This document shows positions 3,735 through 43,150 of a stretch of 44,474 nucleotides of DNA, piece by piece. Where the stretch lies: positions 1 to 44,474 of IMG/VR virus record IMGVR_UViG_3300042691_026441. One strand, 5' to 3'. The position numbers and the translations under genes were made by a program. A model generated the notes under the pieces. It made no database searches. It had not been told where the DNA came from and saw nothing but the letters and a program-made list of their open reading frames with translations. The first letter of the stretch is position 1; every line of letters starts with the position of its first letter. Source of the DNA: a virus.

Positions 3735-3740
3735 CATGCA

Positions 3741-3754
3741 CGCTTTTCAAAGCG
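3741..3754. promoter_or_regulatory. Short perfect inverted repeat
   Basis: CGCTTT, TC, AAAGCG, a 6-2-6 dyad between the P1 terminator and the end of the converging minus-strand gene. A second small dyad (AGGGTTTACCCT) is at 3762-3773. They could be protein sites or weak stops for the minus-strand transcript; neither has a T-run in that direction. Confidence 0.3.
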
Positions 3755-15094: not shown

Positions 15095-15114
15095 CCCCGA
15101 GCAGGAGGCTCACC
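15092..15114 (+). repeat. 23-nt leader repeat, copy 1 (copy 2 at 22361-22383)
   Basis: Identical 23-nt sequence starting at a stop codon and running through the ribosome binding site. It contains GAGC (15099-15102), AGGAG in a loop and GCTC (15108-15111), so the ribosome binding site may be displayed in a 4-bp hairpin. Confidence 0.85.
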
Positions 15115-15115
15115 C

Positions 15116-22363: not shown

Positions 22364-22383
22364 CCCCGAGCAGGAGGCTCACC
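22361..22383 (+). repeat. 23-nt leader repeat, copy 2 (copy 1 at 15092-15114)
   Basis: Identical to copy 1, including the stop codon, GAGC (22368-22371), AGGAG loop and GCTC (22377-22380). Confidence 0.85.
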
Positions 22384-22384
22384 G

Positions 22385-23329
22385 ATGGACCCGATGACAC
22401 TTATGGCCTTGTCTGGATTGTTGGGTGCGGGCATCTCTTCGGCGGGCGGGTTGCTCGGGGCGAAATCCCAGAATGCGGCCGCGCGCGACGCGTTCAACTA
22501 CGACGCCAACACGCGCACGCAGTCGATGAACCGGGCGAACATGGCCATGTTCGGGTTCGATCCCTATCTGGACTCGCTCACCGCCGGCGAAGGCGGCTCG
22601 CAGCGTTCTCGGGAAGCCTCCGCGCGGTTCAACGCGAGCATCGGCGGGCCGATCCATGACCAGCTACGCATGTTTGCGCAGCAGGGCCAGGACGATCTGG
22701 CCGGCAACCTGCGCCGCTTCGACGCGCAGACGCCCCGGCTTGCCGCGTTCGGACGGGGCGCCGAAGGCATCGCGCAGGACTACGGCGCCGGGCGTGAGGC
22801 CGTGATCCGCCAAGACTTCAAAGACACGCTCGGGAGCATGAACCGTCAATCGGCGGCGAACCTGTCCGGGCTGGGCATGAACAGCTTGGTGGCGAATCAG
22901 CAGGCGGGGAACGCGTCGCGGGTGGCGAAGGGTCAGGCCGACGCGCTCACGTCGCTCGGGATGCAGAAAACCGACCGCGTTCTCGGCGCTCGGCAGGTGC
23001 AGGCGGGGCGGGAGTACGGGCGCGATTCGGAACGCACGACGCTTGGGAATCAGACCGCCGCCGGCATGGACGCCCTTCGTCGCCAGCCCCTCAACGCTGT
23101 GTTGCAGTCGTTCACCGACCCGGCGTTCAACCGGGCGGTGGGCGGGTCGAGCGCCGGGTATCTTGCCCAGGCTGGCGCGTCGCCCCTTGGGAGCCTGTTC
23201 GCCAACGCGGGCAACTCGATCTCAACCCTTGGCCCGATGCTGGCGATGATGCAGATGTTCGGTGGCGGCGGAGGAGGCGGTGGCAGCGGCGGCGCGTCGA
23301 TGTTGCCGTACGTTGGACGTGCTGGCTGA
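22385..23329 (+). CDS. Candidate internal/ejection protein 1
   Basis: A 314-residue protein. It starts with a hydrophobic glycine-rich helix (LSGLLGAGISSAGGLLGAKS) and then long Gln, Ala, Arg-rich amphipathic helices (AARDAFNYDANTRTQSMNRANMAM), ending in a Gly run of about eight residues. This build (membrane-active start, helical body, no enzyme motif) is typical of proteins stored in the head and ejected with the DNA. The gene order with the next two genes supports that. Confidence 0.65.
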   Translation: MDPMTLMALSGLLGAGISSAGGLLGAKSQNAAARDAFNYDANTRTQSMNRANMAMFGFDPYLDSLTAGEGGSQRSREASARFNASIGGPIHDQLRMFAQQGQDDLAGNLRRFDAQTPRLAAFGRGAEGIAQDYGAGREAVIRQDFKDTLGSMNRQSAANLSGLGMNSLVANQQAGNASRVAKGQADALTSLGMQKTDRVLGARQVQAGREYGRDSERTTLGNQTAAGMDALRRQPLNAVLQSFTDPAFNRAVGGSSAGYLAQAGASPLGSLFANAGNSISTLGPMLAMMQMFGGGGGGGGSGGASMLPYVGRAG

Positions 23330-23343
23330 AAAGGAATACGACC

Positions 23344-24630
23344 ATGGGCATCGTCAACTCGGGCGCATCGCAAGCGCTGGCGCAAGGTCTACAGCTTGCG
23401 CTCCAAGTTCAGCAGATGGCGCAGCAGCAGCAGGCTCAGCAGGCCCAGCAAGATCTGGCCGGTCGTCGTATGGACTTTGCCGATCGGCAGTTTTCCTACG
23501 GCGTTCAGCAGAACGAGGCCGAGGAGATGCAGCGCCGGTCGGCTGGCATGGCCGACGCCCAGCTCGCGTCATCGCTCGGCATGTTCTCGTCGCTCCCCGG
23601 CGACGGGGAACAGCAGGGGCCACCAGCGCCCGATCAGGAGCTTCTGAGTTTCTTCGCCGACGCCGATCCCGTGATCCGCCGCGGGCTGATAAACGAGCAC
23701 ATCAAAGACCAGTCGCGGGTACGGACGGAGACGGCCAACACCGGTCGCCGGGCCGAGTGGTTCAACAAGCGGGCGGCGGTGCTCGATCAGATGCTCATGG
23801 AACAGAAGCTCACCAGCGAGCAGCACGCTTGGCAGATGATGGACGCGGAGGCGGTGCGCGACAATCTCCCGCGCCCCAAGTTCATGGACGACAGCACCCA
23901 GCGCGGCGGAATGTCGGGCGGCGCCGGCGTCCCGTCGGACGAGCAGATCGCCGCGGCGCTGGCGTCGGTTGAGGACGCGCCCCAGAACGAGAAGGCCGTG
24001 CGGACGGCGGCGGCGCTCGGGGTGAAGCCGACCGCGACGATGATCAGCAGCATGTTCAGCACGGCCAAACCGCCGTCGCTCAACCAACAGCCGGCGTTCA
24101 GGATCGCGGACGAAGAAGTGAAGTTTGCGAAGCAGGTGGCGATGCAGGCAATGAGGCAGCGGGACGAAGCCCGGAATCTGTACGGGTCGTCCACGGCGCC
24201 CGAGGTTTTGGAGGCGGAGAAGGCGCTTCAGGAGGCGTTGAGCGTTCACGCAAAGGCCATGGCGCAATACCGCGCGGCGGCGGCTGGTGCGTCCCCGGTG
24301 CAGACCGGCCCGTCCATGCCGGGAAGCACGCCCCAATCACAGATGCCCCAGACCGTGTACGACATGGGCATGTCGGTTGGATCGTCGGCGGTCCCAGCCA
24401 AAACCCCATCGCAGTTCATCAACCCGGGCGACCCGGAGTACGACGCAAACAAGGTTCCTCCGCTCGGGGCATTGGTCCGGCTTGGCAGCGGGCGGGTAAC
24501 GCCCGTCACCGCCGCGTACATCGACGAGGTGCGCGGTCGGCTGGGCGCGTCTTTGTACCGTCTTCCAGAAAGTCAACGCGCCGCCGCGCTTCGTGAAGCC
24601 GTGCTCATGCAGCTCGAACGGGGCGAATAA
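23344..24630 (+). CDS. Candidate internal/ejection protein 2, Gln-rich N-terminus
   Basis: A 428-residue protein with AAAAGGAA upstream. The first 60 residues are Gln-rich and helical (LQVQQMAQQQQAQQAQQDL); the rest is long helices with a Pro/Ser linker near 320-340. No catalytic motif is seen. Gln-rich, all-helical proteins are common next to ejection genes in short-tailed phages. It could form part of an internal core or a tunnel through the cell envelope. Confidence 0.6.
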   Translation: MGIVNSGASQALAQGLQLALQVQQMAQQQQAQQAQQDLAGRRMDFADRQFSYGVQQNEAEEMQRRSAGMADAQLASSLGMFSSLPGDGEQQGPPAPDQELLSFFADADPVIRRGLINEHIKDQSRVRTETANTGRRAEWFNKRAAVLDQMLMEQKLTSEQHAWQMMDAEAVRDNLPRPKFMDDSTQRGGMSGGAGVPSDEQIAAALASVEDAPQNEKAVRTAAALGVKPTATMISSMFSTAKPPSLNQQPAFRIADEEVKFAKQVAMQAMRQRDEARNLYGSSTAPEVLEAEKALQEALSVHAKAMAQYRAAAAGASPVQTGPSMPGSTPQSQMPQTVYDMGMSVGSSAVPAKTPSQFINPGDPEYDANKVPPLGALVRLGSGRVTPVTAAYIDEVRGRLGASLYRLPESQRAAALREAVLMQLERGE

Positions 24631-24641: not shown

Positions 24642-25127
24642 ATGAGCAGCACGCGCATCACCCTTGCGGTCCACCACACCGCCGGCGGCCACACCACGTC
24701 ATTCGGTTCGCGGGATCACCCCAGCGAGTACGTGTCGTCGGTTGTCGGCGTCTCCAACTCCGACGTGTTCATCTGTCCATCCGGATCATTGCAGACGCTC
24801 TACCAGTATGCGGACTCGAACCCCGGGATCTCCGCGCTCGTGGTGACAGCCGACCAGGACGGAACGCTTTGGTTGCAGGGCGCCACGGCCAACGGGGCAA
24901 ACCCGACGTGGAACGCGGTGCCGATGCGGGCGAACATGCCCGCGTGCATCTCGGCGGAGTCGTTGCCGACGAACGTTGACCCGTCCGCGCACGCCACCGA
25001 CGCCGGCGGCGTCCCTTCCGGCGCGATTTCAATCAATGAGACAACGGGCGTGCTCTACAAAGCCGTCTTTCAACCCGCTAGCGCTGTCAACACCCCCACC
25101 ACCATCAAAACCTTCCGGTGCAACTGA
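24642..25127 (+). CDS. Hypothetical virion protein
   Basis: A 161-residue protein with AAGGAG before ATG 24642. It is beta-rich (RITLAVHHTAGGHTTSFG, then SALVVTADQDGTLWLQG) and ends TPTTIKTFRCN. The repeated small strands and the Asp/Gly turns suggest a compact sandwich. The stop TGA overlaps the start of the giant gene as TGATG, so the two are translationally coupled. Confidence 0.6.
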   Translation: MSSTRITLAVHHTAGGHTTSFGSRDHPSEYVSSVVGVSNSDVFICPSGSLQTLYQYADSNPGISALVVTADQDGTLWLQGATANGANPTWNAVPMRANMPACISAESLPTNVDPSAHATDAGGVPSGAISINETTGVLYKAVFQPASAVNTPTTIKTFRCN

Positions 25128-28100
25128 TGAACCCAAACGATCCATTTGAGGCGTCCGTCACGCGCGGCTCGCTCGCCGGCGTTGGAATGCCGATCGAGGC
25201 CACACCGCCCCCCGTCGCCGCGCCGGTCGATCCGTTCGAGGCCGCCGAAATGCGTTGGGTCGCTGCGCGCCCGGCGGTCGCGGGTGATCTGAAACGCCAG
25301 CGCGAGGAGCTGATGCGCCCGTCGGGGTCGCTCAAGAACGCCGACGGCACCTACGGCGCTCCGTCTATGCCCGCGCCGCCTCCGTGGTGGGGGCTGACGC
25401 CCAAGACGGGTCTCACCGCCACGAAGGTCACGAAGGAAGACGTGGACTCGAAGATGTACGGCTACACCGCCGACGACATCGGAGCGCCCGCCGAACGCGA
25501 TTCCGCCGGCGTGATCCGCCGGAAGTACAACCCGATCACGGGCGCGTGGGCGGAATGGGGAGACAAGGGTGGGTACGGGTGGCACGAAGACAATGCGATC
25601 GGGTACAGGCCCGATCTGGACCCGCGCGAGAAGGTTGGCTTCTTTGGCGAGTTGACCGACGTGGGCAAAGCGTTCTCCGCAACGTCGCTCGGTTCGGCGA
25701 TCGCGCTGCGCGGCGGACAGCCGACCCCGGAAGAGGCGGCGTATCAGGCGTTCAATGCGCCGCCCCAAACCGGACCCGGAAAGGTTGCCGCGATCGTCCG
25801 CGATTCGGCGGCGTTCGCCACCGACTTTGTGCTCACCGGGAGCGCCCAGCGGGCGCTGAGCACCCCCGCACGCGCGGCGGCGCGGTCGTTTGCGGAAAAG
25901 GTGCTGGGCGCGGGTGGACAGCTCGGCAAGGTCGGAAGGCTCACCGAGGCGGCGGCGGAGATGGGCGCGCGCGGGATTGCGGTTGCACCGACGGGCATTC
26001 CCGCCGGCATCAAGGACGCGGTTGAGATCGCGGCGGTGAGCGACGCGCCGTTCATGGAGTCGCTTTACAAGGGCATGGGTGGGCAGTTCATCGAACGGTT
26101 CAGTGAGTTCTCCGGCGGTGTCGTCGCCCGCGGAGCCGGGATGCTCGTTCCCGAGAAACTCAGGTTGCTCAAAGCCGCGATTGCGCAGAAGTGGATGAGT
26201 AAGTCGCCCGGCGTGCGGACCATCAGCAACTTCGCCGAACAGGTGGCGAAAGTCGGCGGTTGGGATGGGATCTTGGGCGAAATCGGTGAGGAGTATGTGG
26301 GCGGGGTTATGAAGGATCTTGCCCAGATCGAAGATTTCCGCGGGTTCTCAAACGAAGAGATCATGCAGATGGCGGCGGCGTTCGCCATTCCCGGCGGTGT
26401 CGTCAAGACCGCTCAGGGCGGGATGGCCGCCACCGACGCCGTGCGCGCGTTCATGCAACGCCGGGCTCAGGCCCAGGGCGCTGACGCGGCGGTGACGGGC
26501 GAGCCCGTTTTACAAACACCCCCGGGAACGGATGCGCCTTTACAGGCCGCTCCAGTCGAGCAGCAGGCTCCGGAGGTTGTGGCGGAAGTGTCGCCAGTGC
26601 CCGCGGCTGAGGTGATGCCGCACCCCACCGCCACACAGACGGCGCCCGTGCCAGCGCAACAGGCCGCACCAGTGCAGGCGGACCCCATCGCCGAACAGGC
26701 GGCGCCAGCGAAATCGAAACATCGCCCGGGTGATCGGGTCATTGTGAACACCGAGGACGGCCCCGTTCAGGCGACGGTTCGTTTTGATCCGAAAGCCGCC
26801 CCGAACGCCGTCACGGTCAAGACCGACGCCGGCGAGATCATCACCGCGAGCCTTGACGACGTGGAGGGTTGGGCGAGCACCAAAATCGACGAAGCCGAAG
26901 CTGTCGGTGTCGCAGAAAACATGCAGGCCGACGCGGCAACAGGCGAGCAGGTTGTCGCCAGTGGCGGGAACGTGATGAAGGTGGACACGTCCACGGGCGA
27001 TGCAACGCCCGTTGCCGACGTAGAGATCCGGGCGGCAAAGGAAAAGAAGGCGAAGAACAAGCGCCCGTATCAGACAGTTGACGTGCCAATCACTCCCGAG
27101 CGCGCAGCGGTCATTCGACAGGTGAAAGAGGCCGTCGGCAACCGTGAAAAGATCCAAGCGGTGTTGGGTGACAAAACCGATGCCTATTTCAAGCGAATGG
27201 CCGGGGGCGAGCAGTCGGCCAACGCGGTAATCCGGGTAATGGGGTGGGACAATGAAGCAGGTGCGCCAGCGCCCACCGCGCAATCAGCACCCGCAACGTT
27301 CAAAGAAGGCGATCGCGTACAAAAAATCGTCAATGGCAAGACCCTCACCGGGACGGTGCAAGGAGTTGATTCGGTCAACGGTGATCTCACGGTCAAAGTT
27401 GACCAGATTCTCAAGGCTGGCGGAGTGCCGATCGGTCGGATTGAGTATTGGCCAAACCGAGAAGTTCAATCCGCCGACGCCAGTTCAAAGGACGTGGGCG
27501 GAAAAGCATCCACCAGTGATTCCGCACCATCACCAACCACCGCCAACCAACCCACCGCAGTTCCGCCCGCCGCTCCCAAGCGGTCTCGGTTTTTGAAGAA
27601 CCTGACTCCGGAAGAAATGGCGTCGTTCGACGACGCAAAGGCCCGCTTCACCAAAGCCGCCGGCGGATCGACTCTGAGCGCCGGGCTCAACACCGACGCG
27701 CTCACCGCCGCGGTTCAGATGGGGTATTTGGTCGCGAAATCCGGCATCCGGTCGTTCCAGAAATGGGCGGCGGTGATGCACGAAGAGCTTGGCGACGTGG
27801 GCAAAACGTACCTGCGCGAAGCATGGGCTGCGGTGCGCGCTAACCGCGACATGCGAACGTACGCCAAATCCGGGGAAATGGTGGATTCTGAGACCGTCGC
27901 GGACATGGCCGACGAAGAGCTTGACCGCCTTATCATTCAGGGACGCGGGGAGTTGGAGAACGACGATGCAAGCCAACCCAATGACGCCGTGGCAGACGCG
28001 GGCGCTTCAGGCGCTGGAGTTCGCGAGCGAGGGCCGACAGAGCAGGCAGAGCCTCGTGAATCAGGCGATGACGCTGGGGGACGAAGCGGCGGTAATGTGG

Positions 28101-31100
28101 GCGGAGCTGGTGCATCAGGGGACGACGCCCGAACAGGCGCAGGAGCTGGTGACGGCAATGCTGATCGACGCGACCGAGAAGCGGGCAAATCCCGACGCGG
28201 ACGGCGGGCAGCAGCAGGAGATGAACGGGACGGTGGGGGAGATGCTCGCGAAACTCCCGCCCAAGAGCAGCGACAGCACGACGCCAAGGCGCTCGACACC
28301 GCCGACCATGTGATCGAGAACCCCGACACGCTGGCGATGGGCTCGCCCAAAGCCAAGTACGCGGCGAACATGAAGGCGCTGGAAACCTATCGGCGGATCC
28401 AGGCCGAAGGGCGCACGCACGCAACCCCCGAAGAGAAGCGGATCCTGTCTCAGTGGGTCGGCTGGGGCATGTTCCCCCAGGTGTTCAACCGCGACTCGGC
28501 GTGGTCCGTTGAGGCTGAGGCGTTGGCCCAGGCGTTGTCCCGCGACGAGATGTACGAGGCGAGGAACAGCACCAAGAACGCGCATTACACCAGCGCGCCG
28601 ATGGTGCAGGCCATGTACGACATGGTGCGCCGGCTCGGCTTTGAGGCTGGGCGGGTTCTCGAACCGTCGATGGGGATCGGAAACTTCTTTGGGCTGATGC
28701 CGGCGGACATGGCCGCCAAGTCCAAGCGCGTGGGTATCGAGCTTGAGCCCATCACCGGCGGCATGGCCAAGCTGATCTACCCGGCGTCGGTCGTGCGTGT
28801 GGCCGGCTTTCAGGACGTTCGCCTTCCGCCGGATTTCTTCGATCTGGTCATCGGCAACGTCCCGTTCTCGTCCACCACGATCTACGACCCCGAGTACAAA
28901 TCCCTCACGCTCAACACCCACGATTACTTCATCGTGCGGTCGCTGGACAAGGTTCGCCAGGGCGGGCTTGTGGCGCTCATCACCAGCACGGGCACGCTCG
29001 ACAAGGCCGGCGCTCAGGGCTCCCGCGCGCGCGAAGCGATGGCAAACCGCGCGTCTTTGGTTGCCGCGTTCCGACTCCCGGGCGGTGCATTTGAGGCCAA
29101 CGCCGGCACGCAGGTTGTGACGGATCTGCTGATCTTCCAGAAACACACGTGGGTGAACGGGGCTCGGAAGGAGAACCCGCACGCGCAGGCGTTCCAAGAG
29201 GTCGTGACGGTTCCGGACCCGGACGGTGGCGAACCGATCCCGGTGAACGAGTATTTCAAGGCCCACCCCGAGCACATCATCGGGCGGCTCGACCGCACCG
29301 GGACCATGTACCGTGCGGGGTCAAAGAACGTCTCCGTCACGGGCGATTGGCGTGAAATGCTCGCCGAGCAGGTGAAGAAGTTGCCAGCGGGGATTGCCGC
29401 CAAGGAAGCCCAGCCCGACGTGGATGTTGAGGGCGCCATGGTTGAAGACCGTGCGGGCAAGGAGGGCGGGTTGTCCGTTGACGACGGAAAGCTTTTCCGT
29501 CGGGTGAACGGGGCCATGGTTCGCGTGCAGGCAGACAAGCCGACCATCGATCGCGTGAAGGCCCTGCTGACGGTGCGGGACGCGGCACGCGAGTTGGTGC
29601 AGGCCGAAGCCCGAGACGCCGACGTGGCGGTGCTGGACGATCTCCGGCAGAAGCTCAACCGCGCGTACGACCGGGCCACGAGCAAGCACGGCAAGCTGCG
29701 CAGCCGCCCAATGCTCCGGGCGATCGCCGATGACCCGGACGCGATGTTTGTCGCGTCGCTCGAAACCGACACCATGGAGAAGGCGGCGATCTTCACCAAG
29801 CGGACCATCCGCGGGACGAAGATCCCCGAATCGGTCGGTTCAGCCGTCGATGCCATGGTCGTTTCGTTGAACGAGAAGGGATCGGTAGATATCCCGTTCA
29901 TGGTGGGGCTGACCAAAACCACCGCCGCCAAGGTGGAAGAAGAGTTGCGGGCATCGGGCCAGGCGTTTGAAGACCCTTCGGAGGGCTGGCAATCCCGCGA
30001 GCGGTATCTTTCGGGCAACGTTCGGGCGAAGCTCGTGCAGGCGGAGGCCGCCGCGGCGATCGATGAACGGTACATGCGCAACGTGGAGGCGTTGAAGGCG
30101 GTTCAGCCACCGGACAAGACCGCCGATCAGATCGATGTTCAGCTTGGATCGGCGTGGGTTCCCCCCGACACGTACGCGGAGTTTTATGCCGGCGCCCTTG
30201 GTGGTTCGCCGGATCACGTTATGGTGTCGTTCAAGCCGTCCACGGGCAGTTTCCTGTTCCAGTTCACCCCGCGCGGGGAGCGGCTTGCGCGGTCACAAAC
30301 CGCAAAACTGCTGTCAACCGACCGGGTTGAGTTTGCCAAGATTGCCGAAGCGGGCATGAACCGTCAGACCATCAAGGTGTTCGACAAGATGGCCGACGGC
30401 TCCTCGGTTCTCAACACCATCGCCACGGGCGAAGCGGCTGGCAAGGTGCAGGAGCTACGCGAGAAGTTCACCGATTGGGTGTGGAACGACGACACCCGCC
30501 GGCAACGGCTCACGCGCATCTACAACGACCAGTTCAACTCAGTCGCTCCACCGTCCGCCGACGGGTCGAATCTGACGCTCCCGGGCATGTCCCCCGAAGT
30601 GACATTGCGCGACCATCAGAAGAACGCCGTGCGGCGGATCATCAACGAACGGCGTGCTGGGCTTTTCCACGAGGTCGGGACGGGCAAGACGTACACGATG
30701 ATCGCGGCGGCGATGGAGGTTCGCCGGCTGGGTATCGCTAAGAAGCCGACCATCACGTGTTTGCTTTCCACCGCCCCGGACTTTGTTCGAGACATCTACC
30801 ACCTGTACCCGGGTGCGAGACTGCTGAATGTGGCCGCCGCCACTGATGCCGACTCCCGGCGAAGGCTGATCGCGCAGGCCGCCACCGGCGATTACGACTT
30901 GATCCTGATGACCCACGAGCAGATCGGCGGGATCACGTGCTCCCCCGAAACCGAGGTGGAGTACATCCAAGACCAGATCGAGGAAGCTGAGGCCGCGATC
31001 GAGCAGGCCCGGCAGGCCGACCGCGCCGCCGGGTTGTCGAAGTCTTCCGATTCGCGGTTCGTCAAACAGCTCGCCAAGCGGCTCGACCAGTTACGTGAGC

Positions 31101-34100
31101 GCGGGCGTGAGCTGCTGGACAAGAAGGCAATCAAAGCGGACGACCAGATTTATTTCGAGGACACCGGGATCGATTTTCTCTTCATCGACGAAGCCCAGGC
31201 GTTCAAGAACCTGCCGGTTCAATCGGCCCTGAACGTGAAGGGGATTGCGCGCAGCGACACCGGACGCGCGGCGGACATGATGATGAAGATCCGCCACATC
31301 GGCAAGCTCCAGAAGGGCCGTGGCGTCGTGCCGGCGACGGGCACGCCGATTTCAAACACCATCGGCGAAACCTTTGTGATGATGAAGATGATGGCCGAGG
31401 CCGATCTTCACGCGCGGAACATCGGTGCCTTCGACGCGTGGGTGTCCACGTTCGGGCACATCTCCGATCAGGTCGAGTACACCATCGATCTCCGACAGGC
31501 TCCGACGCAGCGACTGCGCGACTTTGTGAACATCGGCGAGTTGCAAACCCTGTTCCGTGACACGGCGGACGTGGTGTTTGCTGATGACATCGGGCTCAAG
31601 CGGCCAAAGAAGGTCAACTACGTTGAAACGATCGAGATGACGCCCGATCAGGAGGACTACCGCGAGCAGCTCCGGGCTCTGGCCGCCGAAATCCGGGCGC
31701 GAAGGGGTCCGCCCAAGAAGGGTGATCTCCCGATTACGATCGTCGGCCAGCGGGGCGCCGCATCGTCGATCGATATGCGGCTGGTCGATCCGACCGCCGA
31801 CGCCGAATCCGGGTCGAAGATTCCCTATCTGGTGGCGAACATCCGGAAGTATCTCGACGCCCACCCGGGCACAACGCAGATGATTTTTACGGAGGTGCGC
31901 ACGCTCGAATCCCTGAACCCGGCGTTCAATCTGGTGGACGAGATTGTGAACCAGCTTGAAAAGGCTGGCGTGCCCCGGGACAAGATCATCGACTTCTCAA
32001 ACCTGACGAAGACCGAGCGGCGGGATGCCGCGCGACGGCTGAACAACGGGGACGCGTGGATCGGCATCGGGTCTACCAAAACCCTTGGCACGGGCGTGAA
32101 CGCGCAGAAGAACCTGATTGCCTTGCACCATCTCGACGTGACGTACACGCCGGCAGAGATGGAACAGCGGGAAGGCCGCGGGTACCGCCAGGGCAACATG
32201 AACCCCACCGGTGAGATCAACATTCATCGGTATGTGACCACGGGGTCGTTTGACGTGTTCCGATGGGGCATCGTGGACCGGAAGTACCGCTTCATCCAGC
32301 GGTTCATGCGCGGGCAATCCGTCGCCGGCACGATGAGGGAGGAAGACGGCGAGGATCTGACGCCCGAGCAGGTGGCGGCGATGGCCACGGGGGATCCGAA
32401 GCAGCTTGAGCTGCTGAACGTTGCGTATGAGGTCGAGAAGCTGGAAACCCAGCGCCGGCGTGCCGCGATGGACGCGGCCCGGGTTCGAGATTCCATCGGC
32501 TCGCTCGAAAAGACCATCACGCATCTTGAAAGCCAGTTGGCCGCCACGGAAGCCGAGCGCGTTGAGCTGGCCGAGTTCACCGCCAAGCCGTTCGAGGTCA
32601 AGATCGGCTCGACGCTCGCGACGACTTCCGAGCAGGTGTACGCCGCCGTCAACGCCGCGTTCCCGCTCGCCAACTACACCGACACCGGCAAAGAGATCGG
32701 TTCGATGCACGGGCTCCGTGTGCGGCTGGGCTTGGTTGCCAGCGGCGATGTGGTCAACCTGACAATCGACGGCCCGAAGGGGGTCGGATACTCGGTGTCG
32801 CTGCGCACCACGTCGGTGGAGATGAACGACGGCAAGATGGTGAAGACCGTCCATCCGAACATGCAGGCGTCACTTCGAGCCGTCATGGGAACGGCCGCGC
32901 TCGAACGGGCGGTTGAGACGACCAAGGCAACGCTCGAATCCGCACGCGCCGACTTGGCCAAGGCCAAGACCATGGTGTCGTCCGGGTTCAAGCGGGATGC
33001 CGAGCTTGAGGAGAAGCGAGCCCGCCGCGAAGTGCTCCGTAAGGAGGTCGAGGCGAATCAGGCCGCCGACGACGCTCGACGCGCGGAACAGAAGCAGGCC
33101 CGGGATCTGCTGTGGTCGATGGATGATGCCGAGTTCGCAAAGCTCGCCAGCGAGCGCGGTGTCATGCAGGAGAAGACAACCCGCAACGTGGGTCGGCTGT
33201 TGAGGGCGATCGGTCAATCCGAGGTGATCCGCATGTTCGCGGATCAGATCGCCAAAGCCAAGGCGGCGCAGGAGTTCAAGGAGGCTACAGACCCGACCAA
33301 GTTGTCGGCGGGGCTCAACGCCGACGCCGCGATCGCTGCGGCCAAGTTCGCGTTCTATTGGGCGAAGCCCCACGTGCGGCGCGCCGCCGCGATGGCGTAC
33401 GCCGCCGGCAAAGCGCTTGTGAACATCCCTCGGGCGGCAAAGCTGATGATGCTGAGCCTGACCGGGAAGATCCGCAACGAGGACGGCTCGGTCGCGGTCG
33501 ATCTGGCGGGGATGTACGGCGACGCCGCCGGCAAGGCTCTGCCCCGCATCACCGCTATGGACGCGGCATCGAGCGAGGCCGGCGTTCGGTACGTCAGCGC
33601 CCCGGACGCGGCGGTGTTGCAGGGCGACGTGTACGCCGACTCGGTGATCGGGGATCACACACCCGAAGACGTGGAGCTTGCGGGCGCGGTTCTGACCGAG
33701 GACAACCTTCGCTCGGTGCGCAAGCAGCACGAGGCCATGGCGGCGGAATACACCGCGCGGGGAGAGCAGGAAGCCGCCGACGCCGCCGCCGAATCCGCCA
33801 AGGCGGTCTATTCGCTTGTGGGCGACGGTCGGTATTTCGAGACCGAGGAGGAATATCAGGCCGCGCTCAGGCATCCCGGTGTGGTGGACATCATCAACCG
33901 GTTCATCGACTCATTCTCGCCCGTGATGGACGAGCTCTACAAGAAGGCCAGCGGGATCCCGCTTGACGACGATCTTCCCTCGCGCGGGGAGCAGACCGGT
34001 TGCCGGATCAACCTGAAAGCCAACCGCCCCGAGCAGACCGCCAAGCCGATCGGGATGGCCAACGACCAGACGCGTCCGTTCGTGCGGAAAAGCTCGTTCA

Positions 34101-35860
34101 ACCGCCGGGCGACGGGTGCGGCGAGCCTTGGCTACGACATCGATCTCCGCGAGATCATCAAGAACAGCGTGGTGAAGCAGTTGGAGATCGCCACTCAGCG
34201 AGAGTGGTACGCCACCATGGAGGCGGCGGGCATCGCCAAGATCGCCCCGATGGGCTCGGAGGTGATGCTGCGCGGGGTAGTGGTTCCGCCCGGGTCCGCC
34301 GTGGACATTCAGTACCGGACGCTGGTGATCTCTAAGAACGGGGAGGCCAAAGTCATCCCCCAGAACAACCGGCTGTACCTGCATCCGGCGATTGCCGGCG
34401 AAGTGAAGGCGGCGCTCCGGAAACAGATCGTGGACGTGCGGGGCGCAAAGAGCGTGCTCGTGGGGGCGATCGAGGCGGCGAACATGGCCGCGCTGGTCGG
34501 GCCGGCGGACGCGACGACGCACGCAATGAACGTCGCCACCGTGCTGTTCACGAGGCCCGGCGTTGGACGAGGGCCGATGGGGCGGACGTTGCACATGCTC
34601 GGGGGCGTGCCGGCGATTCTGGCGGCGCTCGATCAACTTCTCGCCAAGGGCATGAAACACTGGTTCGGCAACCGCGAAACCAAACAGCGACACGCGTATC
34701 TCGTGTCGATCGGTGCCATGCGGGTGGAAGCGCACGACAACCCCAGCGAGCGCGAGGGCCTGTGGGCGAAGGTGCTCGACAAGGTGCTCAACATGGGTTG
34801 GTTGCAGCGTCGGCTGGACCCGGTAGCCCGGCTGGTGCTCGACGACGCGTTCACCGAGTTGGTGAAGAAAGGCTTGGTGATCGACTCTGAGACCAACCGA
34901 CGCGAGTTTATCAACCAAGTGGGCCAGTACAACAAGCGGTTGCAATGGATGCTCCCCCGCATCCTGCGAGAGACGGGCGTTGCCCCGTTCATCACCGCCG
35001 GCAAGACGATGCGGAATCTGGCGATCCGGAATCTGGCGATGGCCCCGGGCGCAACCGCCACGAGCCAACTCGCCGCCGCAAAGCTCCGGTTGTCGATCGT
35101 GTCCAGGTGGGTGGGCACCCTTGGCAGCATCGCCATGCTCAACGTGATGCTTGCCGCGCCCGACGACGACCGGCCCGTCTGGGAGAAGGCGGTTGGCCCC
35201 AAGGGCGCAGCACCGGGAACGGTCATGCTCTACACCGATGAGCGCGGTCGCCCCGTCACGATCGATCTTTTGGAGTTGGTGGGCTACCGGCGTGCCGCGC
35301 GAACCGTGGGGCTCGATCAGGCGATCAAGAGCTACATGTTCGGTCTTTCGCCCGGCCAGACCTTTGACCGGGCCGCGAATCAGGCGATCACGTCGGCGAT
35401 CGTGCATCCGATCTCCGGGCCCCCGATCCGCGCCGGGCTCGCCATGCTGTACGGCATCGACCCGTCCGGGTACCCGGTTGCCGCCAAGGCCCGGCCCGGG
35501 GAATCGCAGGTGTGGGAAAATCTCAAGGCAGCGCTCGTGCAGTCGAACCAAGCTACCAAGATCATCTTCTCGGAGGGCGGGAGCGACGTGTCCGTGTTCG
35601 AGGCCGCCGCACAGAACCTTGTGCCCAGGCTTGTGCCAAAGACCGGGCGGACGGAACGGCAAACCGACACTCTTGCCAAGCGACTCACCGCGTTTCAGGT
35701 CAACGAGTTTGCGGACGATCTGGCGAGCAGGCTCAAGAAACTCCCGCGTGAGGATCGGGTGGCGGCGCTGAACAAGGCGCTCGAAGGCATGGACCTCATG
35801 CACGCTGCTAAAGTACGGCGCATCGTGATGTTCAAGAAGCGTGTGATGGCCGCGGAATAG
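25127..35860 (+). CDS. Giant polyvalent protein: N6-adenine methyltransferase + SNF2-like helicase + virion-type segments
   Basis: A 3,577-residue protein; ATG 25127 overlaps the previous stop. Residues 1-450 are virion-like, with DPFEA at 5 and 35. Residues 450-532 are Pro/Ala/Gln-rich. Small beta (SH3/KOW-like) segments lie near 532 and 726. About 850 starts LSAGLNTDA, a helical module also found at 2726. Residues 947-1062 are low-complexity and overprinted. The methyltransferase spans about 1150-1350: motif I EPSMGIGNFFG near 1179, motif IV VIGNVPF near 1242. The helicase has GTGKT near 1851, FIDEAQAF near 2019, ATGTPISNT near 2070, QREGRGYRQGN near 2347. Coiled coil 2435-2720, then a long C-terminal region. 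It resembles DarB of phage P1 and other polyvalent proteins, injected to block restriction. Being next to ejection genes fits injection. Confidence 0.9.
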   Translation: MNPNDPFEASVTRGSLAGVGMPIEATPPPVAAPVDPFEAAEMRWVAARPAVAGDLKRQREELMRPSGSLKNADGTYGAPSMPAPPPWWGLTPKTGLTATKVTKEDVDSKMYGYTADDIGAPAERDSAGVIRRKYNPITGAWAEWGDKGGYGWHEDNAIGYRPDLDPREKVGFFGELTDVGKAFSATSLGSAIALRGGQPTPEEAAYQAFNAPPQTGPGKVAAIVRDSAAFATDFVLTGSAQRALSTPARAAARSFAEKVLGAGGQLGKVGRLTEAAAEMGARGIAVAPTGIPAGIKDAVEIAAVSDAPFMESLYKGMGGQFIERFSEFSGGVVARGAGMLVPEKLRLLKAAIAQKWMSKSPGVRTISNFAEQVAKVGGWDGILGEIGEEYVGGVMKDLAQIEDFRGFSNEEIMQMAAAFAIPGGVVKTAQGGMAATDAVRAFMQRRAQAQGADAAVTGEPVLQTPPGTDAPLQAAPVEQQAPEVVAEVSPVPAAEVMPHPTATQTAPVPAQQAAPVQADPIAEQAAPAKSKHRPGDRVIVNTEDGPVQATVRFDPKAAPNAVTVKTDAGEIITASLDDVEGWASTKIDEAEAVGVAENMQADAATGEQVVASGGNVMKVDTSTGDATPVADVEIRAAKEKKAKNKRPYQTVDVPITPERAAVIRQVKEAVGNREKIQAVLGDKTDAYFKRMAGGEQSANAVIRVMGWDNEAGAPAPTAQSAPATFKEGDRVQKIVNGKTLTGTVQGVDSVNGDLTVKVDQILKAGGVPIGRIEYWPNREVQSADASSKDVGGKASTSDSAPSPTTANQPTAVPPAAPKRSRFLKNLTPEEMASFDDAKARFTKAAGGSTLSAGLNTDALTAAVQMGYLVAKSGIRSFQKWAAVMHEELGDVGKTYLREAWAAVRANRDMRTYAKSGEMVDSETVADMADEELDRLIIQGRGELENDDASQPNDAVADAGASGAGVRERGPTEQAEPRESGDDAGGRSGGNVGGAGASGDDARTGAGAGDGNADRRDREAGKSRRGRRAAAGDERDGGGDARETPAQEQRQHDAKALDTADHVIENPDTLAMGSPKAKYAANMKALETYRRIQAEGRTHATPEEKRILSQWVGWGMFPQVFNRDSAWSVEAEALAQALSRDEMYEARNSTKNAHYTSAPMVQAMYDMVRRLGFEAGRVLEPSMGIGNFFGLMPADMAAKSKRVGIELEPITGGMAKLIYPASVVRVAGFQDVRLPPDFFDLVIGNVPFSSTTIYDPEYKSLTLNTHDYFIVRSLDKVRQGGLVALITSTGTLDKAGAQGSRAREAMANRASLVAAFRLPGGAFEANAGTQVVTDLLIFQKHTWVNGARKENPHAQAFQEVVTVPDPDGGEPIPVNEYFKAHPEHIIGRLDRTGTMYRAGSKNVSVTGDWREMLAEQVKKLPAGIAAKEAQPDVDVEGAMVEDRAGKEGGLSVDDGKLFRRVNGAMVRVQADKPTIDRVKALLTVRDAARELVQAEARDADVAVLDDLRQKLNRAYDRATSKHGKLRSRPMLRAIADDPDAMFVASLETDTMEKAAIFTKRTIRGTKIPESVGSAVDAMVVSLNEKGSVDIPFMVGLTKTTAAKVEEELRASGQAFEDPSEGWQSRERYLSGNVRAKLVQAEAAAAIDERYMRNVEALKAVQPPDKTADQIDVQLGSAWVPPDTYAEFYAGALGGSPDHVMVSFKPSTGSFLFQFTPRGERLARSQTAKLLSTDRVEFAKIAEAGMNRQTIKVFDKMADGSSVLNTIATGEAAGKVQELREKFTDWVWNDDTRRQRLTRIYNDQFNSVAPPSADGSNLTLPGMSPEVTLRDHQKNAVRRIINERRAGLFHEVGTGKTYTMIAAAMEVRRLGIAKKPTITCLLSTAPDFVRDIYHLYPGARLLNVAAATDADSRRRLIAQAATGDYDLILMTHEQIGGITCSPETEVEYIQDQIEEAEAAIEQARQADRAAGLSKSSDSRFVKQLAKRLDQLRERGRELLDKKAIKADDQIYFEDTGIDFLFIDEAQAFKNLPVQSALNVKGIARSDTGRAADMMMKIRHIGKLQKGRGVVPATGTPISNTIGETFVMMKMMAEADLHARNIGAFDAWVSTFGHISDQVEYTIDLRQAPTQRLRDFVNIGELQTLFRDTADVVFADDIGLKRPKKVNYVETIEMTPDQEDYREQLRALAAEIRARRGPPKKGDLPITIVGQRGAASSIDMRLVDPTADAESGSKIPYLVANIRKYLDAHPGTTQMIFTEVRTLESLNPAFNLVDEIVNQLEKAGVPRDKIIDFSNLTKTERRDAARRLNNGDAWIGIGSTKTLGTGVNAQKNLIALHHLDVTYTPAEMEQREGRGYRQGNMNPTGEINIHRYVTTGSFDVFRWGIVDRKYRFIQRFMRGQSVAGTMREEDGEDLTPEQVAAMATGDPKQLELLNVAYEVEKLETQRRRAAMDAARVRDSIGSLEKTITHLESQLAATEAERVELAEFTAKPFEVKIGSTLATTSEQVYAAVNAAFPLANYTDTGKEIGSMHGLRVRLGLVASGDVVNLTIDGPKGVGYSVSLRTTSVEMNDGKMVKTVHPNMQASLRAVMGTAALERAVETTKATLESARADLAKAKTMVSSGFKRDAELEEKRARREVLRKEVEANQAADDARRAEQKQARDLLWSMDDAEFAKLASERGVMQEKTTRNVGRLLRAIGQSEVIRMFADQIAKAKAAQEFKEATDPTKLSAGLNADAAIAAAKFAFYWAKPHVRRAAAMAYAAGKALVNIPRAAKLMMLSLTGKIRNEDGSVAVDLAGMYGDAAGKALPRITAMDAASSEAGVRYVSAPDAAVLQGDVYADSVIGDHTPEDVELAGAVLTEDNLRSVRKQHEAMAAEYTARGEQEAADAAAESAKAVYSLVGDGRYFETEEEYQAALRHPGVVDIINRFIDSFSPVMDELYKKASGIPLDDDLPSRGEQTGCRINLKANRPEQTAKPIGMANDQTRPFVRKSSFNRRATGAASLGYDIDLREIIKNSVVKQLEIATQREWYATMEAAGIAKIAPMGSEVMLRGVVVPPGSAVDIQYRTLVISKNGEAKVIPQNNRLYLHPAIAGEVKAALRKQIVDVRGAKSVLVGAIEAANMAALVGPADATTHAMNVATVLFTRPGVGRGPMGRTLHMLGGVPAILAALDQLLAKGMKHWFGNRETKQRHAYLVSIGAMRVEAHDNPSEREGLWAKVLDKVLNMGWLQRRLDPVARLVLDDAFTELVKKGLVIDSETNRREFINQVGQYNKRLQWMLPRILRETGVAPFITAGKTMRNLAIRNLAMAPGATATSQLAAAKLRLSIVSRWVGTLGSIAMLNVMLAAPDDDRPVWEKAVGPKGAAPGTVMLYTDERGRPVTIDLLELVGYRRAARTVGLDQAIKSYMFGLSPGQTFDRAANQAITSAIVHPISGPPIRAGLAMLYGIDPSGYPVAAKARPGESQVWENLKAALVQSNQATKIIFSEGGSDVSVFEAAAQNLVPRLVPKTGRTERQTDTLAKRLTAFQVNEFADDLASRLKKLPREDRVAALNKALEGMDLMHAAKVRRIVMFKKRVMAAE
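27966..28313 (+). CDS. Overprinted gene inside the giant gene (+1 frame), helical protein
   Basis: A 115-residue frame lying wholly within the giant gene, shifted by +1. GGAG at 27955-27958 stands 7 nt before ATG 27966, an ideal ribosome binding site. The protein reads as a compact helical protein: MTPWQTRALQALEFASEG, then LGDEAAVMWAELVHQ, then TPEQAQELVTAMLIDA, then a polar tail. By my hand count about 87% of its third codon positions are G or C, as in the other genes here, whereas the giant frame over the same bases has about 47% and encodes a monotonous Gly, Ala, Asp, Arg stretch. So the selected frame here is the short one. It could be a structural or regulatory partner of the giant protein; no family is recognised. 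Confidence 0.7.
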   Translation: MQANPMTPWQTRALQALEFASEGRQSRQSLVNQAMTLGDEAAVMWAELVHQGTTPEQAQELVTAMLIDATEKRANPDADGGQQQEMNGTVGEMLAKLPPKSSDSTTPRRSTPPTM

Positions 35861-36753: not shown

Positions 36754-36811
36754 CCCGACCGGTAACGGTCGGGTGATGGACCCGGCGGGCGCCCCTCCCG
36801 CCGGGTTTTTT
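36754..36811 (+). terminator. Double hairpin terminator ending the late unit
   Basis: First hairpin: CCCGACCG (36754-36761), GTAA loop, CGGTCGGG (36766-36773), an 8-bp stem with a GNRA tetraloop. Second: CCCGGCGGG (36781-36789) with CCCGCCGGG (36797-36805), then six T (36806-36811). The second is a textbook intrinsic terminator and shares a 14-nt tail with the one at 3703. Promoter P2 follows 10 nt later. Confidence 0.92.
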
Positions 36812-36820
36812 CATGCGCCC

Positions 36821-36856
36821 TTGACGCGATGGTAATCGCATGGTAAACTCATGGAA
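36821..36856 (+). promoter_or_regulatory. Promoter P2 with three ATGG repeats every 11 bp
   Basis: TTGACG (36821-36826), 17 bp, TAAACT (36844-36849). ATGG at 36829, 36840 and 36851, 11 bp apart, in the same register relative to the -35 box as at P1. It would drive the recombination/replication operon that starts at 36894. Confidence 0.75.
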
Positions 36857-36893: not shown

Positions 36894-37829
36894 ATGGCGT
36901 TGACAGCGAAACAGTTGGAAGACCGCAAGGCGTGGCTTGGCGCGTCGGACATGGCGGCGGTGCTGGGGCTCGATCCCTACCGCACGCCCTACGAGGTGTG
37001 GGCCGATAAAACGGGGCGGGCGCCCGCGCGGGAAGGGGGCGAGCGGGCAAAGTACGGCACGATGATCGAGCCCGTGTTGCGGGCGTGGGCGTCGGCGAAG
37101 CTCGAACGCCCCGTGGTGGCGTCCACGAGCACGTTCCGCCACATGTCGGTTCCGTGCATGGCGGTCAACCCCGACGGGTTTGTCGGCAAGTGCCAGCGCG
37201 GCAATCCGTTGGTGGAGTGCAAACGCACGTCGCTCGCGCAGGAGTGGGGCGAGCCGGGCACGGATCAGGTTCCCTATCGGACCATCGTTCAGGTACAAAC
37301 CCAGATGGCCTGCACCGCTTCGCCGCACGTTCACGTCGTGGCGGACATTGCCGATCGGTTCCATGAAGGTCCGGAAATGTACATCGTGCATCGCGACAAC
37401 GAGATGATCGCGATGATTGAGGAGCGGGCGGTCGAGTTCTGGAATCTCATCGCGAACGACACGCCGCCGGAAGACGGGCCGGTCCCGCCGGTGGAGTTCA
37501 TCGCCAAGGTGCGCCGCGACACCGTGGATCCCGCCCAGGTTGATGACGCGATCATCGCCGAGTATCAAGCCGCCAACGAGCGCCGCAAGAAAGCGGAGAA
37601 GGAGGAGGAGGAGATCAAGGCCCGCCTCCTGCTCAAGCTCGGCACGTCCGAGATCGGCGAGTCCGAGATGCACATCGTGAAGTACGTGATGGAGAACGCC
37701 GGATCGAATACCGACATGGCCGCGATTCGGCAGAACCACCCCGAGCAGTTTGAGGCGTGGCAGCAGCTCATCGATCGGTATCAGGTCAAGCGGACCCGTC
37801 GCGTTCTCCGCATCAAGGCCCGCAAATGA
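36894..37829 (+). CDS. YqaJ-type viral recombinase exonuclease
   Basis: A 311-residue protein, first gene after P2, with AAGGGG 6 nt before the ATG. It begins with KAWLGASDMAAVLGLDPYRTPYEVWADKTG, the hallmark of the YqaJ exonuclease family, and shows the PD-(D/E)xK core: Glu59 (GTMIEP), Asp94 (NPDGF), Glu108-Lys110 (ECK), then VQVQTQM. Such enzymes chew one strand from DNA ends, giving 3' overhangs for the annealase RecT, encoded three genes downstream. A coiled basic/acidic section (KKAEKEEEEIKARLLLKL) follows the nuclease domain and may contact the partner. The length is normal. Confidence 0.9.
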   Translation: MALTAKQLEDRKAWLGASDMAAVLGLDPYRTPYEVWADKTGRAPAREGGERAKYGTMIEPVLRAWASAKLERPVVASTSTFRHMSVPCMAVNPDGFVGKCQRGNPLVECKRTSLAQEWGEPGTDQVPYRTIVQVQTQMACTASPHVHVVADIADRFHEGPEMYIVHRDNEMIAMIEERAVEFWNLIANDTPPEDGPVPPVEFIAKVRRDTVDPAQVDDAIIAEYQAANERRKKAEKEEEEIKARLLLKLGTSEIGESEMHIVKYVMENAGSNTDMAAIRQNHPEQFEAWQQLIDRYQVKRTRRVLRIKARK

Positions 37830-38086
37830 GCGACAAGCCCCACACCATCCCGTTCCCGTGGATCGTTGCCGGCGAGCGGTGCGCGCTGTGCAACAGGCCG
37901 GTGTGGTTTGTTCCGGTCCGGGTCAAGGGCGGCGCGAAGGTCAACTACCCGACCGCCCCCTTGGCCATGACCATGTTCCGCATCGACACCGCAGGCCGCG
38001 GGCTTCGCACGCAATCGGGATTCCCGCTGCACCAACAGGACGGTGGCGCAGCGCCCGATCTGGCGTGCGATCAGGAGCCGTTCTGA
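37826..38086 (+). CDS. Small hypothetical protein with one CxxC
   Basis: An 86-residue protein starting at ATG 37826 in an ATGA overlap with the exonuclease stop. It has a single CALC pair near residue 20 followed by strands (RPVWFVPVRVKGG), and its stop overlaps the next start. One CxxC alone may pair with another protein or with a second chain. Its place between exonuclease and RecT suggests a role in recombination or early takeover; function unknown. Confidence 0.65.
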   Translation: MSDKPHTIPFPWIVAGERCALCNRPVWFVPVRVKGGAKVNYPTAPLAMTMFRIDTAGRGLRTQSGFPLHQQDGGAAPDLACDQEPF

Positions 38087-38487
38087 TGACCGCCTTTGGA
38101 CCCAACTCGCTCTTCGGGCAGTCGAACCCGCCGGCACCGTCGGCGGGCGAGACCCCGCACCCGGGGAACCACGGTCACGAGTTCCTTGGGCCCGACCGGT
38201 GCAAGTCGTGCGGAGCTCCGATCCTGTGGGGCACGAACCTCGCCACCGGCAAGTCCATCCCGCTGGACGCGCACCCGATCGCCACGGCGTTCGTCGTCAC
38301 CGAGGCCGGGGAGAAACAGCCGTTCTGTGAAATCCGTCGAGCCTTCCGCAGTCACTTCGTCTCATGTCCGAACCGAGATCAGCACCGAACCAAGGGGAAT
38401 CACCATGACCAATCAGGCATTGAAAGACCAACCATCAACTCCGCAGCCGGCCAAGCAGCCTCAGCCGAACCCAACCCGCCGCGTTGA
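38086..38487 (+). CDS. Zinc-ribbon-like early protein
   Basis: A 133-residue protein. CKSCGAPILWGTNLATGKSIPLDA at about residues 43-66 and a later SHFVSCPN give the CxxC...C pattern of a small phage protein type (C-x-x-C, tryptophan, GKxxPLD, then SHxxxCP) seen next to recombination genes. The function is unknown; DNA or single-strand binding is possible. The last 25 residues overlap the RecT gene in another frame (83 nt) and are Asn, Gln, Ala-rich. Confidence 0.65.
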   Translation: MTAFGPNSLFGQSNPPAPSAGETPHPGNHGHEFLGPDRCKSCGAPILWGTNLATGKSIPLDAHPIATAFVVTEAGEKQPFCEIRRAFRSHFVSCPNRDQHRTKGNHHDQSGIERPTINSAAGQAASAEPNPPR

Positions 38488-39478
38488 CCCGGAGCGGGCG
38501 ATGACGCCCAACGAGCTCAACGAGGCGGTGCTGGCGCTCAACAAGATCTTCTCTAACCCGGGCCGCATGGAGCGTCTGAAAGACGTGGAGACCGAGTTCG
38601 TCTCCGCCGAGCGCGCGGTGCGTGTGGCGATGGCCGCGATCTCGCGGAATCCTCAGCTCGTCCAGGCTGCGCGGATGAGCCCCCTGAGCTTCTTCGAGGC
38701 CGTCATGGGGGGTATCGAGATGGGCCTTGAGCCGGGCGGGCGGGCGGGCTTGGCGTATCTGGTCCCGCGGCGGAACAAGAAGACCGGGCGCACCGAGATC
38801 ACGTTGCTGGTGGGATACCGCGGGCTCATGTCGATCGTCCGCCGTTCCACCGAGATCGGCGCGATCGAGGCGGACGTGGTGTACCCCACCGACATCTTCT
38901 CGTTCGAGCGTGGATCGGCCCGCGGGCTGCGACACGTGCCCAACTTGGACATTCCGCGGGACGCGCCGGGCGATTTCCGGTTGGCGTACGCCGCCGCGTA
39001 CACCCGGGCCGGTCAACTCATCGACGCGGCGATCATGACCCGGGAGCAGATTGACCAGATCCGCAAGCGGTCGGAGGCCGGGGAATCGGCGTTCTCGCCG
39101 TGGAACAGCAAGTTCGGCGGGGATCAGCTTGAGATGTGCAAGAAGACCGCGCTCCGCCGGCTGTGCAAAATGCTCCCCCTTGAGCCCGTTATCGCCACCC
39201 AGGTTGGGACCGCGGACAAGTTCGACCCGATTGGGGAGACGTTCGCCACCGCCGCCGCACCCGCTGCGGAGGCCCGCCAGACCCCCGCAAGCCGAACGGA
39301 GGCGGTCAAGGAGGCGATTGCACGCTCGGGGGGTGCTCAGACCCCACCAGCCCCCGCCCCCGAGCCTGAGCCCGAGGAAGAGCCTCAGGTCAACCCAGAG
39401 GACGAGGAGCTTGTTCGGGAGCTGGACGATCTGATCGCGCAAGGAAACACCCGCACCGCTTCTCAGGGGAAACCATGA
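38405..39478 (+). CDS. recT: RecT-family single-strand annealing protein
   Basis: A 357-residue protein. AAGGGG is 7 nt before ATG 38405; the open frame upstream to 38096 runs over the zinc-ribbon gene. Residues of about 91-150 (SPLSFFEAVMGGIEMGLEPG, then AYLVP, then VGYRGLMSIVRRS, then VVYPTD) are the classic RecT core. It binds single-stranded DNA and anneals it to complementary strands, working with the exonuclease at 36894. The last 100 residues are a Pro, Glu, Ala-rich acidic tail (PAPEPEPEEEPQV), longer than in most RecT proteins, that could contact SSB or other partners. Confidence 0.92.
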   Translation: MTNQALKDQPSTPQPAKQPQPNPTRRVDPERAMTPNELNEAVLALNKIFSNPGRMERLKDVETEFVSAERAVRVAMAAISRNPQLVQAARMSPLSFFEAVMGGIEMGLEPGGRAGLAYLVPRRNKKTGRTEITLLVGYRGLMSIVRRSTEIGAIEADVVYPTDIFSFERGSARGLRHVPNLDIPRDAPGDFRLAYAAAYTRAGQLIDAAIMTREQIDQIRKRSEAGESAFSPWNSKFGGDQLEMCKKTALRRLCKMLPLEPVIATQVGTADKFDPIGETFATAAAPAAEARQTPASRTEAVKEAIARSGGAQTPPAPAPEPEPEEEPQVNPEDEELVRELDDLIAQGNTRTASQGKP

Positions 39479-41500: not shown

Positions 41501-41504
41501 ACCC

Positions 41505-41628
41505 CCGGACTTCCGGCAGCGCCCTGTCCGGTTTGCCGCAAGGCAATGCCTTCTGAATCTCCCCATCCGATCAGATGGGCAGAACGGGGCGATGATCGGC
41601 CCAGCCGCTCGGAGACGAGACGCTGGGC
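41505..41628 (+). ncRNA. Structured leader RNA with a possible pseudoknot
   Basis: Four stems in a row: CCGGAC/GTCCGG (41505-41510 with 41526-41531), AAGGC/GCCTT (41540-41552), CCCATC/GATGGG (41562-41579) and GCCCAGC/GCTGGGC (41599-41605 with 41622-41628), the last with an inner CTCG/CGAG stem and a GAGA tetraloop. The loop of the third (CGATCA, 41568-41573) is complementary to TGATCG at 41593-41598, so a pseudoknot or an alternative fold can form. The ribosome binding site AGGAG of the next gene follows at 41633. Confidence 0.6.
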
Positions 41629-41642
41629 TTTCAGGAGAACCC

Positions 41643-42041
41643 ATGACCAACCCAATCAACTTTCGATTCCGATACATGCCCGAGCAAAAGGAGATCCGGC
41701 TGAAAAAAGAGACGATCGAGCGCGTGAAAGCGAATCGCCCGACGTTTCAGAGGGCGATGGGCCTACTCCGGCAGGAGCTGGCACACTTGGGCGTTGAGCA
41801 GGAGGTGATCGTCGAAGCCGGGCACAGGCTTGAGCAGATCCGCGCCGACGGCTTCCCGCGCGGATCGTCCACCCCCGAGCACGGCGACGTGCGGATCTCG
41901 TTCCGAGACAAGCACGGGCGAGATTTGCAGTTCATGCAGACGGGCTGGAAGTCGTTCGATTACAACCTGTACATGATCGCGATGCTGCTGAAATACCTGC
42001 GCGACGCCGACGTGTACGCGTGCGACGCGACGGGCGCTTAG
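41643..42041 (+). CDS. N-terminal part of a J-domain protein, ends at UAG
   Basis: A 132-residue frame from ATG 41643 (AGGAG 5 nt upstream of it) to TAG 42039-42041. The sequence (FQRAMGLLRQELAHLGVEQEVIVEA, then GDVRISFRDKHGRDLQFMQTGWKS, then NLYMIAMLLKYLRDADVY) matches the first part of phage J-domain proteins I know, whose second part follows directly without a break. Here that second part continues in the same frame after the TAG. So this is the front of a split or read-through gene. The intact protein would be 213 residues. Confidence 0.8.
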   Translation: MTNPINFRFRYMPEQKEIRLKKETIERVKANRPTFQRAMGLLRQELAHLGVEQEVIVEAGHRLEQIRADGFPRGSSTPEHGDVRISFRDKHGRDLQFMQTGWKSFDYNLYMIAMLLKYLRDADVYACDATGA

Positions 42042-42284
42042 TACCGCGGGTATGCCCAGCTTCCCCCGGGAGGCGGAGCACCTTTAGCGGCGGCGGAGTG
42101 GCCGAACGTCGAGGCGGCGGAGAAGTGGTTGCGCGAGTTCGCCGGCAACATGACCAGCGAACCGATCGATCGCGTCTTCCGCGCCGCCGCCATGAAGGCC
42201 CACCCGGACACCGGGGGCAACGCCGACATCATGGGCAAGATCAACCGTTGCCGCGAGTACATCGAGAAGAAAGGACACCAATGA
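42042..42284 (+). CDS. J-domain C-terminal part, in frame after the UAG
   Basis: The frame after the TAG at 42039 stays open for 80 codons to TGA 42282-42284, which overlaps the next start (ATGA). It reads YRGYAQLPPGGGAP, then EAAEKWLREFAGNM, then a J-domain helix and HPD motif (RVFRAAAMKAHPDTGGNADIM), with His187-Pro188-Asp189 in the numbering of the joined protein. The HPD loop stimulates the ATPase of DnaK-type chaperones. No ribosome binding site exists near any start inside this stretch (first ATG at 42150), so it would need read-through or suppression. Confidence 0.7.
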   Translation, partial: YRGYAQLPPGGGAPLAAAEWPNVEAAEKWLREFAGNMTSEPIDRVFRAAAMKAHPDTGGNADIMGKINRCREYIEKKGHQ

Positions 42285-43150
42285 GCACCAACTTGGACCG
42301 TAAACGCAACCGCCTTCACGTTCTCGTGCATTGCACGGAGCAATACGCGGGAGAACCTACGCCCGGCATCGTGCGGCGTTCTGCGATCCGGACGGAAGCG
42401 TTTGATACCAAAGACATGGGCGGGGTGATGAGTGTCGAGGCCCCGAAGTATTTGGCCGCCGCCGAGGCGTGCAGGGCCGCCGGGCTTCCCCAGCCCGGGG
42501 TGCATCTGCGGTACCCCACCGGGCTTGCCAACGGGCGAACCCCGGCGCTGGAGTCGATGGTTGAGCGACTAACGGGGCTGGCGGCCAATCGACGCCACGA
42601 TTTGTTCCGATCGTTTTTCCGCCCACCCCACCAGATCAGAGAGGTGTCCGCGTACATCGGTGGCGTGGAGCCGAACGCCGGCGAACGTCTATGGGCCAAT
42701 CGCGGGTTGGCCGCTTTCGACAGTTGCATTGATAAGACAGCGGAGTACCTTGCCGCAATCTGGCCGGGGATGTCCTTCGTCGCGGTGGACGTGTCCGGTG
42801 TGGCTCAAGAAGGATCGTGGGCCGAGTACGCGATTCTCAGGATGCAGAAGCTGGGGATGCCGATCGCCGTCGAGCCGATCCGCGGCGGAATCTGGGCGAG
42901 CCGGCGGCCTGTGCCGGTGTTCATGGAGGGCCGGGTGTTTATGAACCATTCAACGCGACAAAGCGACCGTGCGTTGTTCAACAACGTTCTGGACGCGCCC
43001 CGCATCATCATCCAAGACGACGGCACGATGAGCGAAGCGCAGATGGAGTCGCTGTGGTTGCTTTTCCCGGCGATCGAGTTCGTGCTTCCGCCCGAGCGGT
43101 TCACGTCGAGCCTTCTGGCCGATCTGGCGAAGGCGGGGGGTGGGAAGTGA
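42281..43150 (+). CDS. Hypothetical protein, early operon
   Basis: A 289-residue protein starting as ATGA at the previous stop, AAAGG 7 nt upstream. It has a mixed alpha/beta composition: RLHVLVHCTEQYAGE, then MSFVAVDVSGVAQEGSWAEYAIL, then PVPVFMEGRVFMNHS, then APRIIIQDDGTMSEAQ. The first segment and the strand-loop-helix near the middle suggest a Rossmann-like fold, perhaps a nucleotide or sugar enzyme, but no catalytic motif identifies it. Confidence 0.7.
   Translation: MSTNLDRKRNRLHVLVHCTEQYAGEPTPGIVRRSAIRTEAFDTKDMGGVMSVEAPKYLAAAEACRAAGLPQPGVHLRYPTGLANGRTPALESMVERLTGLAANRRHDLFRSFFRPPHQIREVSAYIGGVEPNAGERLWANRGLAAFDSCIDKTAEYLAAIWPGMSFVAVDVSGVAQEGSWAEYAILRMQKLGMPIAVEPIRGGIWASRRPVPVFMEGRVFMNHSTRQSDRALFNNVLDAPRIIIQDDGTMSEAQMESLWLLFPAIEFVLPPERFTSSLLADLAKAGGGK

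Follow-up and report, generated by a model that had tools for sequence, protein, structure and literature searches.

A phage J-domain gene is interrupted by one in-frame TAG at a codon that is otherwise almost always glutamine, and the half downstream of this stop is intact. The gene lies in an uncultivated phage (IMG/VR record IMGVR_UViG_3300042691_026441), and the window analyzed here is the whole 44,474-nt stretch. We give about an even chance that this is an ordinary phrog_9210-type J-domain gene carrying one recent nonsense substitution, present as a real allele in the phage. A single ordinary substitution, whether real or an error, very probably accounts for the TAG, while suppression, programmed read-through and split cistrons are improbable even when taken together.

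One J-domain gene with a TAG at a conserved glutamine codon

Read directly, the frame 41643-42284 has a single interruption, a TAG at 42039-42041 (codon 133), and closes with a TGA at 42282-42284, as an earlier sequence-only reading of this DNA had reported. It opens with a good ribosome binding site, CAGGAG, ~7 nt before the ATG at 41643, and read-through would yield 213 residues (Table 1). The sequence-only reading had also taken the two halves for the front and back of one type of phage J-domain protein, and the homology searches bear this out. Residues 23-207 of the read-through product match positions 20-199 of the 204-position phrog_9210 profile (E = 1.3e-18), each half separately matches its own portion of the profile, and homologues are continuous across the join in tblastn searches and in the alignment. 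The profile match and the unbroken homologues thus strongly support that the two halves are parts of a single gene and protein. All 88 relatives keep one continuous reading frame over the matched region, which the window gene, with its TAG at codon 133, does not.

The tblastn search returned 70 phage records, nearly all with actinobacterial hosts, and the annotations listed were mostly "DnaJ-like chaperonin". H187, P188 and D189 of the HPD motif are invariant in the family, and the C-terminal part of the family profile matches solved J-domains (best E = 1.4e-05); the Pfam DnaJ model scores the single read-through sequence at 14.2 bits, under its cut-off of 27.8. For the N-terminal domain (41643-42038) of this widespread family of phage J-proteins, searches of PDB and BFVD gave no matching structure at E ≤ 0.001.

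Table 1. Coordinates of the interrupted J-domain gene and its surroundings in the window
Feature	Positions	Strand	Basis
RecE-like exonuclease and RecT-like annealing protein, upstream of the J gene	36894-39478	+	Homology, gene order
Ribosome binding site (CAGGAG) and spacer of the J-domain gene	41632-41642	+	Sequence read directly, Shine-Dalgarno scored
N-terminal part, 132 aa, with a folded domain at about residues 7-126	41643-42038	+	Translation, profile, structure model
In-frame TAG, codon 133, Gln in 87 of 88 homologues, predicted interdomain linker	42039-42041	+	Sequence, alignment, model
C-terminal part, 80 aa, with the remainder of the conserved QY-G motif, HPD J-domain and TGA stop	42042-42284	+	Translation, profile, alignment
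Possible weak internal start: GGAG, 6 nt, TTG at 42129, 51-aa J fragment	42119-42131	+	Start-site scoring; inference
Next gene, ATG overlapping the J-gene TGA (ATGA)	42281-43150	+	Sequence, gene map, Gordonia phage comparison

We compared the TAG column across 88 homologues, comprising 80 IMG/VR loci found by a scan with the family alignment and 8 annotated phage copies. The scan patterns were drawn from conserved stretches upstream of the TAG site and therefore did not select for glutamine. As the sequence-only reading had expected, the residue is glutamine in 87 homologues (73 CAG, one transition from TAG, and 14 CAA); it is histidine in one, and none of the 88 contains an in-frame stop within the matched region. 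Of the 19 single transitions that would create a stop in the window gene (leaving out the existing TAG), 7 are CAG to TAG, more than of any other kind, so a TAG at a glutamine position says little by itself, and mutation or error at such a codon would be unremarkable.

A base-call, damage or assembly error, with a sense codon at 42039 and the full 213-residue protein made, is a plausible though not our favored explanation. One change would restore the conserved residue, the rest of the gene is intact, and the TAG is not confirmed by any second contig. The sequence-only reading had proposed looking for TAG or CAG in other contigs of the same phage, and a Y-degenerate 30-mer at the TAG site found no second contig with this stretch. 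Protein searches of viral and genome contigs gave no near relative that could confirm the TAG, and neither did searches with the DarB-like and RecT proteins. The J gene was not seen in terminase relatives, which were at most 41% identical and mostly fragments, in a search without a positive control. Against an error, the rest of the contig carries no error signature (the 3577-codon gene, for example, is unbroken), and no other stop-broken frame has coding signal on both sides resembling one gene.

The half downstream of the stop

Judged by its sequence, the downstream half has not decayed. At positions conserved at ≥70% in 71 non-redundant relatives, the window gene keeps 10 of 12 downstream of the stop and 26 of 55 upstream, and the third-position GC of the downstream half is 0.84. 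Since the HPD motif and 10 of these 12 positions are kept, any damage would be recent, and such an undecayed second half suggests that the stop is recent, false or bypassed. The ATG of the next gene at 42281 overlaps the TGA, an ATGA coupling that also follows the homologous J gene in Gordonia phages and suggests that the second half originated as the 3' terminus of a translated gene. The order RecE/RecT then J is likewise shared with Gordonia phages: the J gene follows RecT in Agueybana and Vasanti, and RecE precedes RecT in Agueybana. Upstream of the J gene, the 142-nt intergenic leader (41501-41642) folds more strongly than shuffles (z = -3.17), with a GCCCAGC...GCTGGGC hairpin immediately ahead of the ribosome site. 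Rfam searches gave no hit, for this leader included.

The second half might also be started separately, giving two cistrons that encode an N-domain protein and a J fragment. A TTG at 42129, 6 nt after GGAG (42119-42122), would give a 51-aa fragment that retains the HPD stretch. The sequence-only reading had found no ribosome binding site for the second half, which overlooked this GGAG and otherwise holds, the candidate being weak and easily due to chance: it uses a TTG 87 nt past the stop, and four-base matches are common in G-rich DNA. Homologues with the two parts as separate genes with their own starts, the arrangement that reading had said would refute it, were not seen among the 88, and one locus (L067, 1785-2339) has the N part alone. 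We consider two cistrons the least probable of all the readings.

Under programmed read-through, the gene would make two products, a short one of the N domain and a long one that includes the J-domain. In the AlphaFold2 model of the read-through product (mean pLDDT 87), the N-terminal domain extends to residue ~126 and a helical C-terminal domain spans 147-211; residue 133 falls in the low-confidence linker between them (~126-146), so that the stop is predicted to divide two domains cleanly. This placement, the conserved downstream half and L067 are all consistent with two forms. L067 is a natural family member that stops just past QYQGW with no J-domain immediately after, the only such case in 88 homologues. 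However, it retains the QYxGW motif, whose Q, Y and G (of QYxG) are among the most conserved positions of the family, whereas the short form in the window would lose it. The linker position of the stop and the natural end of L067 there keep a functional short form barely alive. Conservation of the stop, expected for programmed read-through, is seen in 0 of the 88 homologues, and the RNA downstream of the stop folds no better than shuffles (z = 0.24; z = -0.05 with flanks; pseudoknot-free folding). In E. coli, a UAG followed by U is not known to be leaky. We regard programmed read-through as very unlikely. A lone amber in the linker acting as a switch, yielding a J-less decoy and a little full J-protein through host suppression, is more doubtful still.

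TAG elsewhere in the window

To place the TAG in context, we used an approximate, home-made gene map based on codon usage (~45 complete genes), in which 35 genes end in TGA, 8 in TAA and 2 in TAG. Its ~14,000 codons include 558 glutamine codons (419 CAG and 139 CAA) and one in-frame TAG at a glutamine position, not the many found in a translation table 15 phage. Nor is TAG unused as a terminator, as it would be in such a phage: it ends the 3577-aa DarB-like gene at 35858-35860. Coding continues in the same frame after this codon, but from its own AGGAGG-GTG start and with a sequence like that of a small membrane protein, so the TAG at 35858 acts as an ordinary stop, and we rejected it as a second read-through site. 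Genome-wide recoding was rejected on the TAG counts.

Suppression could be more local, with a host or unseen phage tRNA reading the amber codon as glutamine and making TAG sense or partly sense. The position of the TAG, exactly at a conserved glutamine, and its rarity as a terminator in the window favor this explanation. ARAGORN found no tRNA genes within the 44-kb window; this counts against it only weakly because the contig may be an incomplete fragment and an amber suppressor tRNA is carried by only 52.4% of table-15 phages (PMC11210395), some recoded phages having none (PMC10607447). The stronger objections are the single TAG against 558 glutamine codons, whereas dozens of ORFs are affected in recoded phages (41 in phAss-1; PMC10607447), and the TAG that ends the DarB-like gene, after which a separate gene starts from an AGGAGG site of its own. 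Suppression is therefore unlikely.

The DarB-like gene (25127-35860) is a single gene with matches to families of DarB-like antirestriction proteins, DNA methyltransferases and helicases, and its core is ~33% identical to Burkholderia phage DarB-like proteins. Similar strong hairpins at 3704-3745 and 36781-36822, each followed by TTTTTTCATGC, are 74% alike although 33 kb apart and are probably terminators of the same type. A translation leader, AAGGAGAATGACCATG, is repeated around start codons at 1029-1050, 1934-1955, 2230-2251 and 23331-23352, and a second, CCCCGAGCAGGAGGCTCACC-ATG, occurs at 15085-15118 and 22354-22387.

The nonsense allele and known systems

Our favored reading is that a phage J-domain co-chaperone gene downstream of RecE-RecT took one recent nonsense substitution at its conserved glutamine codon. 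Should the base be real, translation would stop after the 132-residue N-terminal domain; lacking the HPD J-domain, this product is expected to have lost the recruitment of host DnaK, which would make this a loss-of-function or polymorphic allele. Several sequence comparisons point this way: one gene in all relatives, the near-invariant glutamine, no stop in any homologue, no other sign of recoding and the undecayed downstream half. Against it, the base at 42039 is known from the contig alone and could be an error, an intact downstream half is equally expected of a functional read-through product, and the stop lies in the predicted low-confidence linker, where a two-form gene would place one. 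Of the four explanations in the sequence-only reading, two fit: decay, in the form of a recent nonsense allele, and a base error. The other two, programmed read-through and suppression or recoding, are disfavored by the TAG and glutamine counts, the TAG terminator elsewhere, the missing tRNA, the ordinary RNA folding and the stop-free homologues. A lone in-frame stop at a conserved glutamine is the pattern of ordinary mutation or base error, and taking it as a sign of recoding calls for genome-wide support. If real, the allele would suggest either that the phage can manage without the J-protein or that amber codons are suppressed in its host.

Like TAG-recoded phages (translation table 15, crAss-like, phAss-1, Lak), the window has TAG where relatives have glutamine, but it has only one, carries no suppressor tRNA, also uses TAG as a terminator and has a G+C content of 64%. 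As in programmed stop-codon read-through genes, in-frame coding continues after a stop at a domain boundary; in contrast to them, the stop occurs in no relative and the downstream RNA structure is ordinary. Compared with phrog_9210 relatives, the frame is broken by the TAG, identity to the aligned phage homologues is only 24-29%, and the N part has diverged further than that of any of the 71 non-redundant relatives. Nevertheless, the gene shares length, domain order and the QYxG and HPD motifs with the "DnaJ-like chaperonin" of Gordonia, Microbacterium and Mycobacterium phages (Agueybana gp64, Jambalaya gp82, Fizzles gp49), together with the RecE/RecT genes found nearby in some of these phages and the ATGA overlap with the next gene.
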